From NCBI GenBank assembly GCA_026709625.1, contig JAPOSR010000054.1, positions 1-64,000 on the forward strand: 64,000 nt of DNA, read 5' to 3'. This document shows, one piece after another, positions 3,556 through 40,600 of this stretch. Under the pieces are notes generated by a model. That model did not search any database. It saw nothing but the letters and a program-made list of their open reading frames with translations, and had not been told where the DNA came from. The stretch is from Chloroflexota bacterium (GTDB taxonomy: Bacteria > Chloroflexota > Anaerolineae > Aggregatilineales > Phototrophicaceae). Numbering within the stretch: position 1 is the first letter of the stretch; every line of letters starts with the position of its first letter. Made by a program: the position numbers and the translations under genes.

Positions 3556-4524
3556 TTACGTTTCCATATCAATCACAATTTTCACCGCGCCCTCGTCTTG
3601 CAGGCGGTGCAGGGCATAGGCTTCGAAGACATCGTCAAATTTGAAAGTGTGCGTGATCATCGCCGCCGCATCGACCTCGCCACGGCTGATCCAGTCCAGC
3701 GCCCGCCGCGTGCAGGCATGCCCAGGGTCTTCCGCCGCCCCCACCATGCCGCGCGTTTGCAGTGTCTTCCAAAACAACTCGAAGAAGGGGAAGTCCATCG
3801 TCGCGAAGCGTGGCACGCCAAACCACAAGATGAAGCCGCCGCGCCGCGTGATATCCACAGCCAGGCGAATCGATTCTTCTTCGCCAGCCGCTTCAATGAC
3901 CACATCGGGCAGCTCTCCGCCACAAATCTCGCGCAGGGCCGGGGCGGGACTTGCGGCCGCGTTGCAGATGGTGTGCGTCGCGCCGAAGCGCCGGCTGTAG
4001 GCGAGCCGATACGCTTTGACATCCAGCGCGATGATCTTGTCCGCGCCCAGCCGCCGCAGCGCTTCGTTGAACCACAAGCCCGCCGAGCCCTGTCCGATGA
4101 CGGCGACCGACTTGCCGCGCAGATCTGGCAGCGCCTGGCAGGCATAGAGCACTGTGCCCAGCTGCTGCGCCTGCACAGCCTGCTCCAGTGGCACATGGGC
4201 GGCCAGCGGCAGCAGATGATCGACCGGCGCGCGATAATACTCGCACATGGCGCGATGATCGGGCGCAAGACACAGCACGCGCTCGCCCGGCTGCACAAGA
4301 CTGACGCTCGAGTCGATCGCCTCGACGACGCCGACCATTTCGTGCCCGGTTTCGCCGGCCGCGGTGGGATAGCTGCCTGCGGGCAGATGATGCAGGTGGC
4401 GGATGTCACTGCCGCACAGCGAGGTGCGCAGGGTGCGAACAATGGCGGTCTCGGGGGCGAGGGCGGGCTTTTGCGCATCGACAAACACGGGTTTGCCACG
4501 CGCGATGATCTGCACGGCTTTCAT
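3556..4524 (-). CDS. Zinc-dependent medium-chain alcohol dehydrogenase family protein
   Basis: MKAVQIIARGKPVFVD...RTSLCGSDIRHLHH...GHEMVGVVEAID...VIGQGSAGLWFNEALRRLGADKIIALD. Start moved to MKAVQ at 4522-4524. Confidence 0.85.
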   Translation of the reverse strand: MKAVQIIARGKPVFVDAQKPALAPETAIVRTLRTSLCGSDIRHLHHLPAGSYPTAAGETGHEMVGVVEAIDSSVSLVQPGERVLCLAPDHRAMCEYYRAPVDHLLPLAAHVPLEQAVQAQQLGTVLYACQALPDLRGKSVAVIGQGSAGLWFNEALRRLGADKIIALDVKAYRLAYSRRFGATHTICNAAASPAPALREICGGELPDVVIEAAGEEESIRLAVDITRRGGFILWFGVPRFATMDFPFFELFWKTLQTRGMVGAAEDPGHACTRRALDWISRGEVDAAAMITHTFKFDDVFEAYALHRLQDEGAVKIVIDMET

Positions 4525-4741: not shown

Positions 4742-6706
4742 ATGAGCGAAAAACTCACTTTCCAAGCCGAAACGCAGCAATTGCTGGATATCTTGATCCA
4801 CTCGCTCTATACCGAGAAAGAGATTTTCCTGCGCGAGTTGATCTCGAATGCGTCCGACGCGCTCAACCGCCTGCAATTTGCGATGCTGACCAACGATGCT
4901 GTGCTCGATGCCGATGCCGAGCTGTCCATCCGCATCACGGTGGACGAAGACGCCAAGACCTTGACCGTCAGCGACACCGGCATTGGCATGGACCGCGCCG
5001 AGGTCATCGCCGGGCTGGGCACAATCGCCAAATCGGGCGCCAAAGCCTTTGTCGAAGCCATGCGCGAGCAGCCCGAAAGCGCCAGCGACATCATCGGGCA
5101 ATTCGGCGTGGGCTTTTATTCGGCATTTATGGCGGCGCGGCAGGTGGATGTGGTTTCTCGCTCGTTTCGTCCCGACGACGAAGCGGTGATGTGGACAGCC
5201 AGCGGCGGCACAGACTACAGTCTTGCGCCTGCCGACAAGGCAACGCGCGGCACGGATGTCATCATCCACTTGCAAGACGACGCAGTCGAATTCGCCCGCG
5301 AGTTCCGCGTCAAGGACATCATCCGCCGGCATTCGGATTATGTCGCCTTCCCCATTTATGTCGGCGATGACGAAGAAGCGACCAACAAGCAGCAAGCCAT
5401 CTGGCGGCGCAGCCCGGGCGAACTGGAAGACGAAGACTACGACAGCTTCTACAAGATGCTGACCATGGACTTTGGCGGGGCGGCGCACCACCTGCATATC
5501 CGCGCCGATGTGCCTATGCAATTCTATGCCTTGCTCTATATCCCCGGCTCCAACCAGCCCAATATGTTCAACCCGCGCAAAGACCCGGGCTTGAAGCTGT
5601 ACGCGCGCAAGGTGCTCATCGAAGAATACAACCGCGAGCTGCTGCCCGAATACCTCAGCTTTGTGCAAGGCGTCGTCGATAGCGAAGACCTGCCCCTGAG
5701 CGTCAGCCGCGAAAGCATCCAGGCGACGCGCGTCATGGCCAGCCTGCAGAAGACCATCACGCGGCGCATCTTGTCTGAACTGAAGCGCATGGCAAAGAAC
5801 AATCGCGACCAATACTTGACCATATTCCAGGAATTCGGCGCTTGGCTCAAGCAAGGACTGGTCGTGGAAAGCGGCGACCGCGAAGATCTCGAGCCGCTGC
5901 TCTTGTTCCAGACCACCCACGATGACGACCCCAGCCAGTATCATTCGCTGGATGATTATGTCGAACGCATGGCCGACAACCAGTCCGACATCTTCTATAT
6001 CATCGCTGATGAATACAGCAGCGGCGCGCGCAGCCCGCACCTGGACACGTTTCGGCAGCGCGGTGTCGAAGTGCTCTACTTCACGCATCCCGTCGATGCC
6101 ATGCTGCCGATGGGCTTGCCAGACTACAAAGGGCACAAGCTGGTCGGCGTCGATTCCGCCGATTTGGATCTCGGCAATATCGGCGAAGTGGCTGAGGCGG
6201 ACGAGGTGCCGCGTCAATCGCTGGCGGATGAAGCCTTTGCCGAGCTGAAGAACCGCTTTGCGCAGACCCTCGGCGAACGCATCAGCGATGTGCGCGAGAG
6301 CAGCGCGCTGGTGGGAAACCCCGCCCGCTTGGTCAGCGATGACGAAGCGGGGAGCCGCCATATGTACCGCATCAACCGCCTGCTGGACAAAGAGCATGAG
6401 CTGCCGGTCAAGGCGCTGGAGTTGAACGCGCGTCATCCATTGATGCACAACCTCAGCGGCATGATCGCGGCTGGCAGCGATGACGCGCTGGCTGAGGCGG
6501 TGATCGAGCAGGTCTTTGAAACCGCCCTGCTGCAAGACGGCCTCCATCCCGACCCATCCAGCATGGCGCAGCGACTGACTCTGCTGATGCAGGCGGCAAC
6601 GGGGTCGGAACGCGGCGCGCTGGATTTCTCAAGCGCCGGCGCCAGCATCCCAGAGCCGGGCCGCGACCCCGACAGTGCAAACATGATCTCACTTGATGAT
6701 GCCTAG
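4742..6706 (+). CDS. htpG: Molecular chaperone HtpG (Hsp90)
   Basis: MSEKLTFQAETQQLLDILIHSLYTEKEIFLRELISNASDALNRLQF...DTGIGM...GQFGVGFYSAFMAA. Confidence 0.97.
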   Translation: MSEKLTFQAETQQLLDILIHSLYTEKEIFLRELISNASDALNRLQFAMLTNDAVLDADAELSIRITVDEDAKTLTVSDTGIGMDRAEVIAGLGTIAKSGAKAFVEAMREQPESASDIIGQFGVGFYSAFMAARQVDVVSRSFRPDDEAVMWTASGGTDYSLAPADKATRGTDVIIHLQDDAVEFAREFRVKDIIRRHSDYVAFPIYVGDDEEATNKQQAIWRRSPGELEDEDYDSFYKMLTMDFGGAAHHLHIRADVPMQFYALLYIPGSNQPNMFNPRKDPGLKLYARKVLIEEYNRELLPEYLSFVQGVVDSEDLPLSVSRESIQATRVMASLQKTITRRILSELKRMAKNNRDQYLTIFQEFGAWLKQGLVVESGDREDLEPLLLFQTTHDDDPSQYHSLDDYVERMADNQSDIFYIIADEYSSGARSPHLDTFRQRGVEVLYFTHPVDAMLPMGLPDYKGHKLVGVDSADLDLGNIGEVAEADEVPRQSLADEAFAELKNRFAQTLGERISDVRESSALVGNPARLVSDDEAGSRHMYRINRLLDKEHELPVKALELNARHPLMHNLSGMIAAGSDDALAEAVIEQVFETALLQDGLHPDPSSMAQRLTLLMQAATGSERGALDFSSAGASIPEPGRDPDSANMISLDDA

Positions 6707-34689: not shown

Positions 34690-37548
34690 ATGCAGTTCAC
34701 AGCGCCAGCTGCGGTTCTTTTGCTGGTTATATTGCTGCCACTGCTTTGGCTGATCGGCTTCCCGCGCCATGCGTTTCGCCGCCGCCGCGATATCAGCAGT
34801 CTGCTGCTGCGCTCGCTAATTGTGACGCTGCTGGTGTTTGCGCTGGCGGGCTTGCAGCAAGTGGGCGCGGTCGAAAGGCTGGCGGTTGTTTTTCTGGTCG
34901 ATGCCTCCGACAGCATGGGCAGCGATGCCGAATCTGCCCAGTTGGACTTTTTGCGGGGGGCGCTGGCAAACAAACCGCACGCTGATGAATGGGCGCTGCT
35001 GGTCTTTGGCGACGATGCCGTGCCCGAGCGAGATTTCAGCGCGCTTGGCGAGATTGAAGGCATCGCATCCACGCCGAGCGCCAGTGGCACCAATATCGCC
35101 AAAGCTTTGCAAACCGCGCTGGCTATGTTCCCGCCCGATGCCACTCGCCGCATCGTCATGTTGAGCGACGGCATCGCGACAAGTGGCGATGCCCTGGCTC
35201 GCGCGCAACGGGCTGCCGCAGCTGGCGTCGAGATCAGTTATGTGCCGTATGTCCGCGAGCCAGCGCCTGATGTGCGGATCCGCTCTCTCGATGCGCCCGG
35301 CCGAGTCGCCCAAGAGCAAGCCTTTGATATCGCCGTTAGCATCGAGGCCGACATCGACACCCCGGCCACGTTGCTGGTCTTTTCTGGTGGCGAGCTGATT
35401 TATGATGAGCAACTGGACCTGCAAGCGGGCGAAAATCGCTACAGCTTGACTCAGCATAGCGGCAAAAGCGGCTTTCTTGATTTCACCGCCCAGGTCATTG
35501 TGCCGGGCGAAAACGACCATTTCGCGCAGAACAACCAGCTGGGCGCATTCAGCCAGGTTATTGGTCCGGCGCGCGTCTTGCTCATCAGCGCCGAGCCAGC
35601 CGAGACGCAGTTTTTGCTGCCGGCGCTCGAGCAGGCGGGCTTGCAGGTCGAGCAAGCGCCACCGCACATGCTGCCGGTGAATATGGCTGAACTGGCTGAT
35701 TACAAGAGCGTCGTCGTGGCGAATGTGCCAGCCACTGAGCTGAGCCGCGTCCAGATGAGCCTGCTGGACACCTATGTCAGCGACATCGGCGGCGGATTGG
35801 TCATGATCGGCGGTCCGCAGAGTTATGCGCCTGGCGGATATTACCAGACGCCGCTGGAACGCGCGCTGCCGGTGGATATGCAGATCAAAGACCAGCGCCG
35901 TCTGCCGCAGTTGACAATCGCCTACTTGATCGACCGTTCGGGCAGTATGGGGCAGGCGGGCCGCAGCGGCGTGCCCAACCTGGAATTGGCGAAGCGCGCC
36001 ATCGTGCTCTCGCTGGAGTTGCTGCAAGCCAGCGACCGCGCCGCTATCGGCACTTTCGACACGGGTGGCGCCTGGGTTGTGCCCTTCCAGCAAGTCAACG
36101 ATGCCCAAGCCATGATCGCCATGACCAACTCCATTCGCTCGGGCGGCGGCACCGACATCCTGGCGGGCTTGAGGCTGGTCGAGCGCGATATAAAAGAAGA
36201 GCCATCGCAGCTCAAACACCTGATCTTGCTGACAGACGGCGGCGCGAACTCGACTGGACTGGTGGAGTTGACCGAATCGCTGCATGCGGAACATGGCGTC
36301 ACGCTTTCGTCAATCGCTATCGGGCGCAATCCGGGCGCATTCCTGCAGCCCATGGCTGAAGCCGGGCAGGGCAACTATTACCGCGTCGCCAATGTCGAGG
36401 AGATCCCGCTCATCTTTGCGCAAGAGACTGTCTTGGCCTCGCGTTCCTACATCGTTGAAGAGACATTCACGCCGCGCGTAACCGGCAGCAGCGCGATTTT
36501 GGATGGCATCGGCGCGCTGCCACCGCTGCGTGGCTATGTCGCGTCCACGCCGAAGACCGCCGCCCAGCGCATTCTCAGCGGGCCCGAGCCCTACGCCGAC
36601 CCAATCTTGGCAGCCTGGCAATATGGTTTGGGCAGGGTGGTCGCCTTTACCGCCGATGCCAACGCGCGTTGGGCGAATGAATGGGTCGTATGGGAAGATT
36701 TCTCGCGCTTTTGGGGACAAGCTGTGACGTGGAGCATCAACGCCGGCGCCAACGAAAACCTGGAAACAAGCATCGTGCTCGAAGACGAGCGAGCGCGGAT
36801 TGTCGTCGATGCGCGGGACGAGACCGGCGGCTTCTTGGACGGCTTGGCGCTCGATGGCGCGGTGCTCAATCCAAATGGCAACAGCCTGCGCCTGGGCCTG
36901 CAGCAGACTGCGCCTGGCCGCTATGAAGCCAGCTTCAGGCCGGGGCGCGAAGGCGCTTATTTCCTCAACATCAGCGGCGAGGCGGCTGCGGAGGCTGGCG
37001 CCGCGCCCTTGACTGATCTTAAGGGCTGGGTGCGCTCCTATTCGCCGGAATACCTGCCACATACGGGTGGCGAGGCGCTGCTGGCGGATCTGGCGGAGGC
37101 GACAGGCGGGCGCAACCTGGCTGATGCGCCGCAGGCAGTCTTCGCGCACAACCTGGGCGAGCGGCAAGCTGCCAATGATATCTGGGAGAGTCTGATCTTG
37201 CTGGCGCTGCTGTTGCTGCCGCTGGATATCGCGCTGCGCCGGCTGATCATCACACGAGGCGATTTGCAACGCTTGCGGGCATTCGCAACCGGGCGCGGGA
37301 CGCGGCAGGCTCGCTCGCAGCAGATGCAGGCGCTCTTCAGCGCGCGCAGCCGCAGCCGCGAGACGACTGGTTATGGCGCAGATCTGCCCGATGGCTTGCG
37401 TCCACCCGCTGGCGACAGCCCGGCACCAGTCTCTCAGCAAGCCAGCCCGCGCCGGTCTGCGCGTGAGCCGGAGTTCATGCAACCGCCGGACGATCAACCC
37501 AATCTGGGCGCGCGTCTGCTGGAACGCAAAGGACGGCGGAGCGATTAG
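34690..37548 (+). CDS. VWA-domain membrane protein (BatA/GATase1-like architecture)
   Basis: Two N-terminal TM helices; VVFLVDASDSMGSD; second VWA TIAYLIDRSGSMGQAGRSG; GGGLVMIGGPQSYAPGGYYQTPLERALPVDM. Confidence 0.92.
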   Translation: MQFTAPAAVLLLVILLPLLWLIGFPRHAFRRRRDISSLLLRSLIVTLLVFALAGLQQVGAVERLAVVFLVDASDSMGSDAESAQLDFLRGALANKPHADEWALLVFGDDAVPERDFSALGEIEGIASTPSASGTNIAKALQTALAMFPPDATRRIVMLSDGIATSGDALARAQRAAAAGVEISYVPYVREPAPDVRIRSLDAPGRVAQEQAFDIAVSIEADIDTPATLLVFSGGELIYDEQLDLQAGENRYSLTQHSGKSGFLDFTAQVIVPGENDHFAQNNQLGAFSQVIGPARVLLISAEPAETQFLLPALEQAGLQVEQAPPHMLPVNMAELADYKSVVVANVPATELSRVQMSLLDTYVSDIGGGLVMIGGPQSYAPGGYYQTPLERALPVDMQIKDQRRLPQLTIAYLIDRSGSMGQAGRSGVPNLELAKRAIVLSLELLQASDRAAIGTFDTGGAWVVPFQQVNDAQAMIAMTNSIRSGGGTDILAGLRLVERDIKEEPSQLKHLILLTDGGANSTGLVELTESLHAEHGVTLSSIAIGRNPGAFLQPMAEAGQGNYYRVANVEEIPLIFAQETVLASRSYIVEETFTPRVTGSSAILDGIGALPPLRGYVASTPKTAAQRILSGPEPYADPILAAWQYGLGRVVAFTADANARWANEWVVWEDFSRFWGQAVTWSINAGANENLETSIVLEDERARIVVDARDETGGFLDGLALDGAVLNPNGNSLRLGLQQTAPGRYEASFRPGREGAYFLNISGEAAAEAGAAPLTDLKGWVRSYSPEYLPHTGGEALLADLAEATGGRNLADAPQAVFAHNLGERQAANDIWESLILLALLLLPLDIALRRLIITRGDLQRLRAFATGRGTRQARSQQMQALFSARSRSRETTGYGADLPDGLRPPAGDSPAPVSQQASPRRSAREPEFMQPPDDQPNLGARLLERKGRRSD
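37521..37548. repeat. 28-bp direct repeat, left copy (3' end of the VWA gene)
   Basis: ggaacgcaaaggacggcggagcgattag; 25/28 identical to 40097-40124, first 19 nt identical. Confidence 0.92.
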
Positions 37549-37656
37549 ATGGAATACAGAAGGGCTCGCGTGAGATGCTGTGTTACAATTTGGCGTGAGT
37601 TCATTCTCTAGCCGGGGAGGTCGGCAATTACGCAAATACCGTTACCCAAAGATTCG

Positions 37657-39138
37657 ATGCAGGATGTTGAGGTGTTGCGCACTGCATTCACTACGGGCGA
37701 TATGTCTTGCTCCACGGCTCGCACTGCCCTTGAGAGACATTTTGCGCCTTTGTTGAAGCCCACTTCTCGATTTAATCGGAAACTCGTCAGCTATCAAGCT
37801 AACAAGTCGACCAGTACGCATCGTTGGTTCAAATTCAAAGAGGGCTTTTCTGCACAGCTCGTAAAGGAATTTGTTGGGGAATTCGGACTCGGACCCTCAC
37901 AACGTATTTTGGATCCCTTTGCCGGCGTTTCAACGACATTGATGGTTGCCGAAGAATTAGGAATTGACGCAACCGGAATAGAAGTAATGCCAATCGGCGA
38001 GCTGATATGGAAGGCAAAGTCTGGAGCGGCAGAATACGATATAGACCGAATTAGGGAGATTCGCGAATGGGTTGCGAAGACGCTTCCGCAGCGCTCTAGC
38101 CACGGATTCCCGCACATTCCGATAACGCGCCAGGCATTTGATGAAGAGCAAGAAGCTAAGTTGATGTGGTACAAGGAGAGATTCGCGAGTTTCGATGTCG
38201 ATGACAGGACTGGTGATTTGCTAAGATTCGTTTTGGTATCGATTTTGGAAGACATAAGTTATACGAGCAAGGACGGTCAGTTTTTGCGCTGGGACAGTCG
38301 CTCCAACAAGATGCAGATACGCAACCAGCAGCGCATCGCGGAAGGAAAGCAGCCTGTAAAGCAGTTCCACAAGCGCCAAATACTTCATGTGCAGCAAGCA
38401 ATACTAAGGGCGCTGGACTTAATTCTTTTCGATGTCTCACAGTCTGCTAATTTGGCTAATGCTCGAGGTGATCAGGAACTTGTATCTGGATCAGTCTTGG
38501 ACTTGCTGCCAATACAGCCTGCTGACAAATTCGATGCAGTGATTACTTCGCCGCCATACTGTAATCGCTACGATTACACGCGAACATACGCGCTGGAATT
38601 GGCATTTATTGGCGTCGACCAAGAGGCGATCCTCGAACTTAGACAGCGTCTTCTAAGCTGCACAGTGGAAAATCGAACGAAACTCATGCAACTTCGTCAG
38701 GGTTACGCGCAGATCGGTCGCTTGCAGTGTCTTGAGCAAGTGTTGTGTCTGCTCAACGAGCATGACGCATTTCAAGAGATCCTCACAGCCTTGAGAGCGC
38801 GCAGCCATCGTGGTGAAATGAACAACCGCGGCATCATTACCATGGTTGAAGGCTATTTTACGGAAATGGCGGTTGTAATCTTCGAACTCTTCCGAGTTTG
38901 TAAACCAGGCGCATCCGTTGCGCTTGTCAATGACAATGTCCGCTACAGCGGCGAGGTCATACCAGTAGACTTGATACTGACTGACTTCGCAGCCCAGCTT
39001 GGTTTCTGTCCGCAGTACATATATGTTCTTCCGCAGCGAAAGGGAAACAGTAGCCAGCAGATGGGCAAGTACGGCCGTGCGGCGCTCAGAAAGAGCATTA
39101 TGGTATGGAAAAAGCCGATGAGGTCTTATGGCAGTTGA
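37657..39138 (+). CDS. Type II DNA methyltransferase (SPPY, probable N4-cytosine)
   Basis: Motif I ILDPFAGVSTTLMVAEELGIDATGIEV; motif IV VITSPPYCNRYDYTRTYALELAF; translationally overlaps a downstream endonuclease. Confidence 0.88.
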   Translation: MQDVEVLRTAFTTGDMSCSTARTALERHFAPLLKPTSRFNRKLVSYQANKSTSTHRWFKFKEGFSAQLVKEFVGEFGLGPSQRILDPFAGVSTTLMVAEELGIDATGIEVMPIGELIWKAKSGAAEYDIDRIREIREWVAKTLPQRSSHGFPHIPITRQAFDEEQEAKLMWYKERFASFDVDDRTGDLLRFVLVSILEDISYTSKDGQFLRWDSRSNKMQIRNQQRIAEGKQPVKQFHKRQILHVQQAILRALDLILFDVSQSANLANARGDQELVSGSVLDLLPIQPADKFDAVITSPPYCNRYDYTRTYALELAFIGVDQEAILELRQRLLSCTVENRTKLMQLRQGYAQIGRLQCLEQVLCLLNEHDAFQEILTALRARSHRGEMNNRGIITMVEGYFTEMAVVIFELFRVCKPGASVALVNDNVRYSGEVIPVDLILTDFAAQLGFCPQYIYVLPQRKGNSSQQMGKYGRAALRKSIMVWKKPMRSYGS

Positions 39139-40090
39139 CAAGCGGCGCGCGTGGGCTCTCGATCAACTTCAAAAGAGCCTGTTCTTTCATCAGCGACTTC
39201 ATGACTGGGGACTGATCGAGGTTGCTAAGGAAATTGAAGAAATCTCTGGTGAGAACCTGGAATGGGACTTGCAGACACTGGACATATCGAACTTCGCCTG
39301 GAATAGAGTTATCCATTCCGGAATAAAGCCGATCCTTGTCTTCGCGCATCCCGAAGTGTTGCGGACAGTTCCCAAAGCCGTAAGCTACTACCGAATGCTG
39401 AGCATGGTTTCACAGAAGTCCATGAACCAATTGGGAATGGCTACAGGGCGATTCGAGCAAGGCGACAAGACACCTAAGTCCAACTTGGCCACGAGGATTG
39501 CTAAGAGGGTCAACTCTGTCATTTGTGCGCTCATTGAGAGTGAACACAGAATTGAGCGACGCGAGTTTGACATTTGGCGCGGAATGGCGGCAGGGTCTCA
39601 GGCTCAGGGATCATGGCAGAATCGGAAGGGCGATGTCGCCGAAGCGATTCTACGCGAGGACTTACTCGCACAATTGAAGAGGTTGCGTCTAGTCGATCCA
39701 GAATTCTCAATTGATTTGCAGCAACGAAATGCACTGCTCGAATTGCATGATGGAAGAATAGTGCGGCTGGGTTCAGAACCCGATATCTTGATTCGGGACA
39801 GTTTTAGAATACAGGCTGCTGTCGAAATAAAGGGCGGGATAGATCCTGCTGGAGTTCTTGAACGCGTAGGCGCAGCGATAAAAAGCTTGAGCCGCGCCAA
39901 AGAAGAGAGCCCTGGCGCAATCACGATTTTATTGATATCTGCTACTTCAATGTCGGACCAAGCCGAGCGAGATATTCTCTCAAACAGAAGCAATGTCAAT
40001 TACTGGTTTACTGTTGAAGACATTCTGCAGAATTCGGAAGTAAAACAGAACTATTACAGTTTGATGGGTCTTGGCCACGAAGTCAAATAA
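39128..40090 (+). CDS. Type II restriction endonuclease, XcyI-like (tentative)
   Basis: PD-(D/E)XK-like EPDILIRDSFRIQAAVEIKGGIDPAGVLERVGAAIKSL; GSWQNRKGDVAEAILREDLL; 11-nt overlap with the methyltransferase. XcyI assignment is from memory. Confidence 0.72.
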   Translation: MAVDKRRAWALDQLQKSLFFHQRLHDWGLIEVAKEIEEISGENLEWDLQTLDISNFAWNRVIHSGIKPILVFAHPEVLRTVPKAVSYYRMLSMVSQKSMNQLGMATGRFEQGDKTPKSNLATRIAKRVNSVICALIESEHRIERREFDIWRGMAAGSQAQGSWQNRKGDVAEAILREDLLAQLKRLRLVDPEFSIDLQQRNALLELHDGRIVRLGSEPDILIRDSFRIQAAVEIKGGIDPAGVLERVGAAIKSLSRAKEESPGAITILLISATSMSDQAERDILSNRSNVNYWFTVEDILQNSEVKQNYYSLMGLGHEVK

Positions 40091-40096
40091 TCTTTC

Positions 40097-40124
40097 GGAA
40101 CGCAAAGGACGGCGGGATGATTAG
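40097..40124. repeat. 28-bp direct repeat, right copy (duplicated VWA 3' end)
   Basis: ggaacgcaaaggacggcgggatgattag; still reads ERKGRRDD* in the VWA frame; its ttag contains the DinB stop. Confidence 0.92.
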
Positions 40125-40600
40125 CCAGCAGGGTCCGCCGCTTCATCCAAAAATATCGGAAAATCCAATTCGCCGGGCGAGCATCCAAGGGTGGTCAGCA
40201 GCGCCGCGCACTCCGCCCGATGCTGGGTGCCATGATTCACCACATGCCACAGGCAATGCCAGACCAGCCGCCGCCGTCTGCCGCCAGCGCCGACATACGT
40301 GAACTCTCGCTGCAGGTCGCTTTCGCCCAGACTGCGCAGGTAGCGCCAGAATTCGTCTTTTTCACGCCGCCACAGCTTTTGCACCGCCATCAGGTCGGCG
40401 CAGTCGTCTGGCTGCAAAAAGTCGGTGAATTGGCCGCGGGTCATCAGCATGCGCCAGGCTCTTTGCGCTTCGCAGATATGCGCCAGCGTCGCCAAGAGCT
40501 CTTGCGGGGGCGCATTCTCTAGGCGCGCCGCCGCCGCCAGCAATCGCTCGGTCGCCCAGTCATGATAGTCAAACAGCAGAGTGAGGTCGGCAAGTCGCAC
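40121..40600 (-). CDS. DinB family protein
   Basis: LTLLFDYHDWATERLLAAAARL...LATLAHICEAQRAWRMLM...LWHVVNHGTQHRAECAALLTTLGCSPGELDFPIFL. Confidence 0.93.
   Translation of the reverse strand: MRLADLTLLFDYHDWATERLLAAAARLENAPPQELLATLAHICEAQRAWRMLMTRGQFTDFLQPDDCADLMAVQKLWRREKDEFWRYLRSLGESDLQREFTYVGAGGRRRRLVWHCLWHVVNHGTQHRAECAALLTTLGCSPGELDFPIFLDEAADPAG

Follow-up and report, generated by a model that had tools for sequence, protein, structure and literature searches.

How can a restriction-modification (R-M) pair come to lie between two convergent genes that share their stop codons, leave both of them whole, and do so without an integrase of its own? The question arises from a 64,000-nucleotide stretch of contig JAPOSR010000054.1 from a Chloroflexota bacterium (the window; its genome is G000 in what follows). 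A first-pass annotation, made from the sequence alone, had described there a DNA methyltransferase and an XcyI-like endonuclease bounded by two 28-base repeats, and had read them as an integrase-less insertion that preserves the end of the target gene. The features are listed in Table 1. Sequence search recovers both 28-mers where that annotation had placed them, in direct orientation and identical at 25/28 positions; all three mismatches fall in a single codon, AGC in the left copy and GAT in the right. As had been described, the left copy is the C-terminus of the VWA gene and the right copy still reads as one, its TTAG also holding the stop of the convergent DinB gene, and VWA and DinB are both whole. 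Within the window there is no third match to the 28-mer (shuffles gave 0.00), and its 19-base core occurs at two places only in the whole 3.24 Mb genome, which rules out a dispersed repeat. The length of 28 bases would fit XerCD/dif, yet the repeat shows no resemblance to the dif sequence by eye.

Table 1. Features at the end of the VWA gene and of its insert (positions count from the first base of the window).
Feature	Position	Strand	Evidence
VWA-domain gene, 952 aa; its 3' end is the target	34690..37548	+	ORF; PF13519/PF00092
Left 28-base copy: present VWA C-terminus ERKGRRSD and stop	37521..37548	+	sequence matching
Module leader: -10-like TTACAAT 37583-37589; Shine-Dalgarno GGGGAGG 37614-37620	37549..37626	+	
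Type II DNA methyltransferase, probable ATT start; DPFAG and TSPPY motifs	37627..39138	+	PF01555; PADLOC MTase_II 3e-146
XcyI-family type II restriction endonuclease	39128..40090	+	PF09571 7.8e-18; PADLOC REase_II
Spacer TCTTTC, the entire gap between endonuclease stop and right copy	40091..40096	+	
Right 28-base copy: displaced native VWA-DinB junction, in frame, ERKGRRDD and stop	40097..40124	+	
DinB-family gene, convergent, stop inside the right copy	40121..40600	-	ORF; PF05163

Between the repeats, open reading frames and a profile search give two enzyme genes only, overlapping by 11 bases, with no integrase or other mobility gene, in agreement with the first-pass annotation. The identities it proposed for both enzymes hold as well: the endonuclease scores 65.2 bits against PF09571 (curated cut-off 25) and has a PD...EIK catalytic pattern (PD at 218, EIK at 232), and the PF01555 match of the methyltransferase likewise exceeds its curated cut-off. 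The module had also been called AT-richer than its flanks, and the computed GC content is 49% for the module (37627-40090) against about 62% for the flanks, where windows mostly range from 57 to 67%. A consensus scan of the leader (37549-37626) detected no sigma-70 promoter; the -10-like TTACAAT was placed by eye, through alignment with TATAAT in the other copies of the genus. At the module ends there are no inverted repeats (11/30 matches, a value equalled by shuffled ends in 58% of trials). The pair may serve in defence by restricting unmethylated DNA, and it may also maintain itself through post-segregational killing, a known property of type II R-M systems.

Removal of the module was predicted to restore VWA and DinB genes with overlapping stops, and this is the arrangement found in the four closest relatives (G003, G007, G027 and G030; VWA protein identity to G000 88-92%), all of which are free of the module and have a single copy of the junction. 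No module-free relative carrying both 28-mers was observed. Relatives carry, behind the DinB-family gene, one to three more tandem DinB copies that are 34-47% identical to the DinB of the window, where the gene is in single copy. The five genomes are related as (G027,(G000,(G030,(G003,G007)))). The VWA gene of G027 ends in CGG CGG GTG GAT TAG CC, and the right copy in the window reads CGG CGG GAT GAT TAG CC in the same frame; the right copy is thus the displaced native end of the gene, and VWA now terminates in the left copy. By direct count over 28 bases, 3 differences separate the two copies, against 6 and 7 that separate them from G027, which probably places the duplication after the split from G027; the evidence is moderate, given that 28 bases are few and constrain the age weakly. 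Between a gain and a loss from a repeat-bearing ancestor, the copy sequences, short as they are, favour a gain after that split.

The genus was sampled with 34 genomes, one per species, many of them fragmented drafts. The VWA gene is present in all 34 and the endonuclease in seven (G000, G001, G015, G020, G023, G025 and G029); the R-M pair follows directly behind the VWA stop in 7/7, and no pair was found away from the VWA end in any of the 34. At the same place G005 and G010 retain decayed stubs, consisting of the leader and the first methyltransferase codons, and two of the seven copies are broken, that of G029 by a frameshift and that of G001 by a contig end that cuts off the endonuclease. 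Two contig ends in G001 (the end of L038 and the start of L159) break the endonuclease gene with matching inverted termini, TATAAGGCTTGTCCGATAA, probably those of an insertion sequence. GC content is 46-50% for the R-M genes against 56-65% for the flanks in 7/7 carriers. The 3' neighbour of the module varies, being DinB in some carriers and a transporter cluster in others; in many members of the genus the 5 kb after VWA, to judge by eye, look like a beta-helix gene and genes for sugar transporters. The VWA end was also considered as a general hotspot for cargo and rejected: in other genera neither the methyltransferase nor the DinB neighbour turned up close to VWA.

A displaced VWA end is absent from G015, G023, G025 and G029 according to the repeat scan, and inspection of G001, which lies outside the reach of that scan, revealed no duplication on the far side. 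A second one is present in G020, where a clade-specific tail of 24 bases, CGCCACGACGAAGCGGAAGATTAA, lies beyond the module. It reads CGC CAC GAC GAA GCG GAA GAT TAA and immediately precedes the gene found after VWA in the empty sister species of G020. Counts by eye give 22/24 identical positions with the VWA end of G016 and 17/24 with the left copy of G020 itself. Since the displaced end in G020 is that of another clade, there were at least two separate events at the VWA gene.

The R-M tree pairs G025 with G029 and G015 with G023 at full support, as does the VWA tree. Its single conflict with the latter joins G000 to G001 (87-91% support), and the AU test does not reject a VWA-like arrangement of the R-M tree (p-AU 0.055). 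In the six genomes whose VWA is complete, R-M distances are correlated with VWA distances (r 0.79, over pairs that are not independent), and to the eye the leaders of G010, G015 and G023 are similar from the VWA stop on. The shared site, the stubs, the compatible trees, the correlated distances and the similar leaders together make a long residence of the pair at this site likely. What the first-pass annotation called an integrase-less insertion therefore stands with regard to the empty sites and the displaced native end, and finds no support as a lone recent event: with the same site used in 7/34 genomes, two remnants besides and a compatible tree, the duplication marks only the latest entry, in G000 and separately in G020. 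Could one ancient insertion followed by many losses account for everything, the G000 repeats being old and the empty relatives having lost the module through them? The single site in all carriers, the stubs as witnesses of loss, the lack of significant tree conflict, the correlated distances and a methyltransferase start of AUU/AUC common to nine copies would agree with pure vertical descent. We nevertheless consider it improbable, as both G000 copies are clade-1 sequence and resemble each other more than either resembles G027, the right copy of G020 is clade-3 sequence, five carriers (G001 by inspection) have no displaced VWA end, and an old non-coding copy would be expected to have decayed.

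Beyond the genus, a genome from another family of the order (G143) carries the same enzyme family at an unrelated site, 3' of a presumed proline-catabolism dehydrogenase gene (named by eye), between 26-base repeats that agree at 25/26 positions and are unique to that locus in its genome. No empty site was recovered for G143, the intergenic region being different in its relatives. The repeat sequence is not conserved among G000, G020 and G143, and those of G000 and G143 are unrelated. Among 47 further methyltransferase loci in the class, one reached the flanking-repeat threshold of 14, with a G/T-rich 15-mer at L227; many of the 47 are without a detectable XcyI endonuclease and have ill-defined module ends. 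Flanking repeats were rejected as a general trait of the enzyme family, 46/47 of these loci having none at that threshold. In a gammaproteobacterial MAG (L134), a related R-M pair lies between two MITE-like copies with palindromic ends (about 3690-3830 and 6560-6690); as MITE-like, palindrome-ended sequences these flanks are probably unrelated and were discarded as a parallel case.

The diversity of repeat sequences bears on the idea that a recombinase acting in trans, such as a host or phage tyrosine recombinase, integrates the module site-specifically at the VWA end. A fixed site at a gene 3' end, with the gene restored, does recall the integrative elements at tRNA genes. Yet the module has no integrase, the repeat is not conserved among the three duplications, the VWA ends of the carrier clades differ strongly and copies free of repeats exist, all of which makes this account very improbable. 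It is also doubtful, though somewhat less remote, that the XcyI-type R-M lineage as such prefers one gene end and moves without a recombinase, for instance as a circle that enters through short homology and leaves likewise, with duplications of 24-28 bases as the outcome.

The main rival to one-sided homologous recombination is a transposition-like insertion, in which a staggered break of about 24-28 bases was filled in and the differences between the copies arose later. G143 lends it weight, with the same enzyme family between genome-unique repeats at an unrelated site, and its 25/26 duplication fits such an event better than homology. The repeats are also of similar length (28 bases in G000, 26 in G143, 24 in G020), the left copy of G000 is of the native clade type, and some R-M units are described as inserting with short target duplications and others with long, variable ones (PMC3874152). 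The account leaves unexplained why all copies in the genus sit at a single gene end, however, and finds no inverted repeats at the module ends, no such repeats at 46/47 other loci and, in G020, a non-coding right copy that resembles the VWA end of a relative more closely than the left copy of the same module. We regard it as possible, if on the unlikely side.

The reading we prefer, to which we assign a probability of roughly one half, is that of a polymorphic R-M locus with long residence, recurrent decay and loss, and recent re-entry in at least two lineages (G000 and G020), where the duplication of the gene end was left behind. It starts from what is directly observed: the site shared in 7/7, two stubs, single-copy empty sites, and clade-specific ends displaced to the right in G000 and G020. 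The R-M pair and its leader, about 2.5 kb, would be a presence/absence allele at the VWA 3' end, resident there through most of the genus's history and subject to frequent decay and loss. The module may re-enter empty strains from related carriers, with no integrase or transposase of its own. Its left joint would form at the VWA end, most likely by homology with VWA in a close relative that carries the module, and its right joint non-homologously, 24-28 bases before the VWA stop of the recipient, whose native gene end would thereby survive beyond the insert. A homologous left and a non-homologous right joint would account for the structure, for the shared site and for copies that differed from the outset. 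Selection would favour a duplicating join, the only kind that keeps VWA and DinB both whole when their stop codons are shared. Recombination between the repeats would excise the module and recreate the empty site, and losses can therefore be clean. Against this reading stand the five of seven genus copies that have no duplication. Nor do the VWA genes of G000 and G020 show any donor tract; the homologous left joint therefore needs a donor of the same clade, outside our sample. As for carriage by phages or plasmids, matches on both were of 24-28% identity only, and none was confirmed in viral contigs.

The methyltransferase start deserves separate mention. The first-pass annotation began the gene at 37657, which is indeed its first ATG; the probable start lies 30 bases upstream, at ATT 37627 behind GGGGAGG. 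In all nine copies of the genus, stubs included, the apparent start METHYLTRANSFERASE is ATT or ATC, a few bases 3' of a purine-rich, Shine-Dalgarno-like stretch, and this arrangement occupies the same place in the window (37614-37629) and in G001, G005, G010, G015, G020, G023, G025 and G029. Outside the genus, homologues carry ATG or GTG at that position, with peptides such as MQQLSL and MSQLPL against IKQLSL and ITQIPL within it. No in-frame ATG, GTG, TTG or CTG lies between the preceding stop and the ATT/ATC codon in six of the nine copies, the exceptions being G001 and G005 (CTG) and G029 (TTG). The comparison suggests a fixed non-canonical AUU/AUC start. A limited text search of the literature found no precedent for such a start in R-M systems, which is weak evidence; if confirmed, the AUU/AUC start would represent an unusual control of R-M expression.

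Recognition-site counts were also compared. CCCGGG, the cleavage site expected for the XcyI family, occurs 8 times in the window against 14.9 expected, with a similar ratio in an empty relative and one of about 1 in the other carriers. GGCGCC is strongly avoided in the clade of the window (15 observed, 88 expected in the window; ratio 0.18 in G007 and 0.38 in G003 plus G030), but the remaining clades of the genus, at 0.84-0.94, do not avoid it. The avoidance suggests an old, clade-specific restriction pressure that does not obviously come from the R-M module.

Movement of R-M systems without mobility genes has hitherto been deduced chiefly from pairs of strains. Here, 34 genomes present the whole cycle at one gene end, with empty sites, fresh duplications, older duplication-free modules, frameshifted or interrupted modules, and stubs. 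How often the module is gained or lost, and where each repeat copy came from, can be tested directly at the VWA end, and the locus illustrates how R-M modules can enter and leave genomes integrase-free. It also suggests a rule: where convergent genes share their stops, an insertion is harmless only if the shared end is duplicated.

Among known systems, XcyI-family R-M (PF09571) agrees with the module in an endonuclease above the family cut-off and a methyltransferase adjacent upstream; plasmid-borne enzymes of the family are about 24-28% identical, and the methyltransferase here is apparently AUU/AUC-started. Integrative elements at the 3' ends of tRNA and other genes likewise leave the target end whole, with a duplicate on the far side, but here there is no integrase, the flanking sequence is not conserved and the duplicate is missing from most copies in the genus. 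Insertion of R-M units with target duplication has been described since 2000 (Nobusato et al. 2000; Furuta et al. 2010), is treated also in PMC3031569 and PMC1643837, and is summarised in a 2013 review (PMC3874152), which sets short duplications with imperfect inverted repeats apart from long, variable ones of about 100 bp. Our case shares with these insertions a unit of R-M genes alone, flanking direct repeats, an empty site and the lack of an integrase. It differs from them in repeat length, 24-28 bases falling between the short class and that of about 100 bp, and from the short, transposon-like class in having no inverted repeats at its ends. It differs further in that one orthologous gene end is used across a genus, the native end being displaced with its frame intact. 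The case belongs to this class of R-M insertions with target duplication, and the repeated use of one orthologous gene end is its most notable feature.
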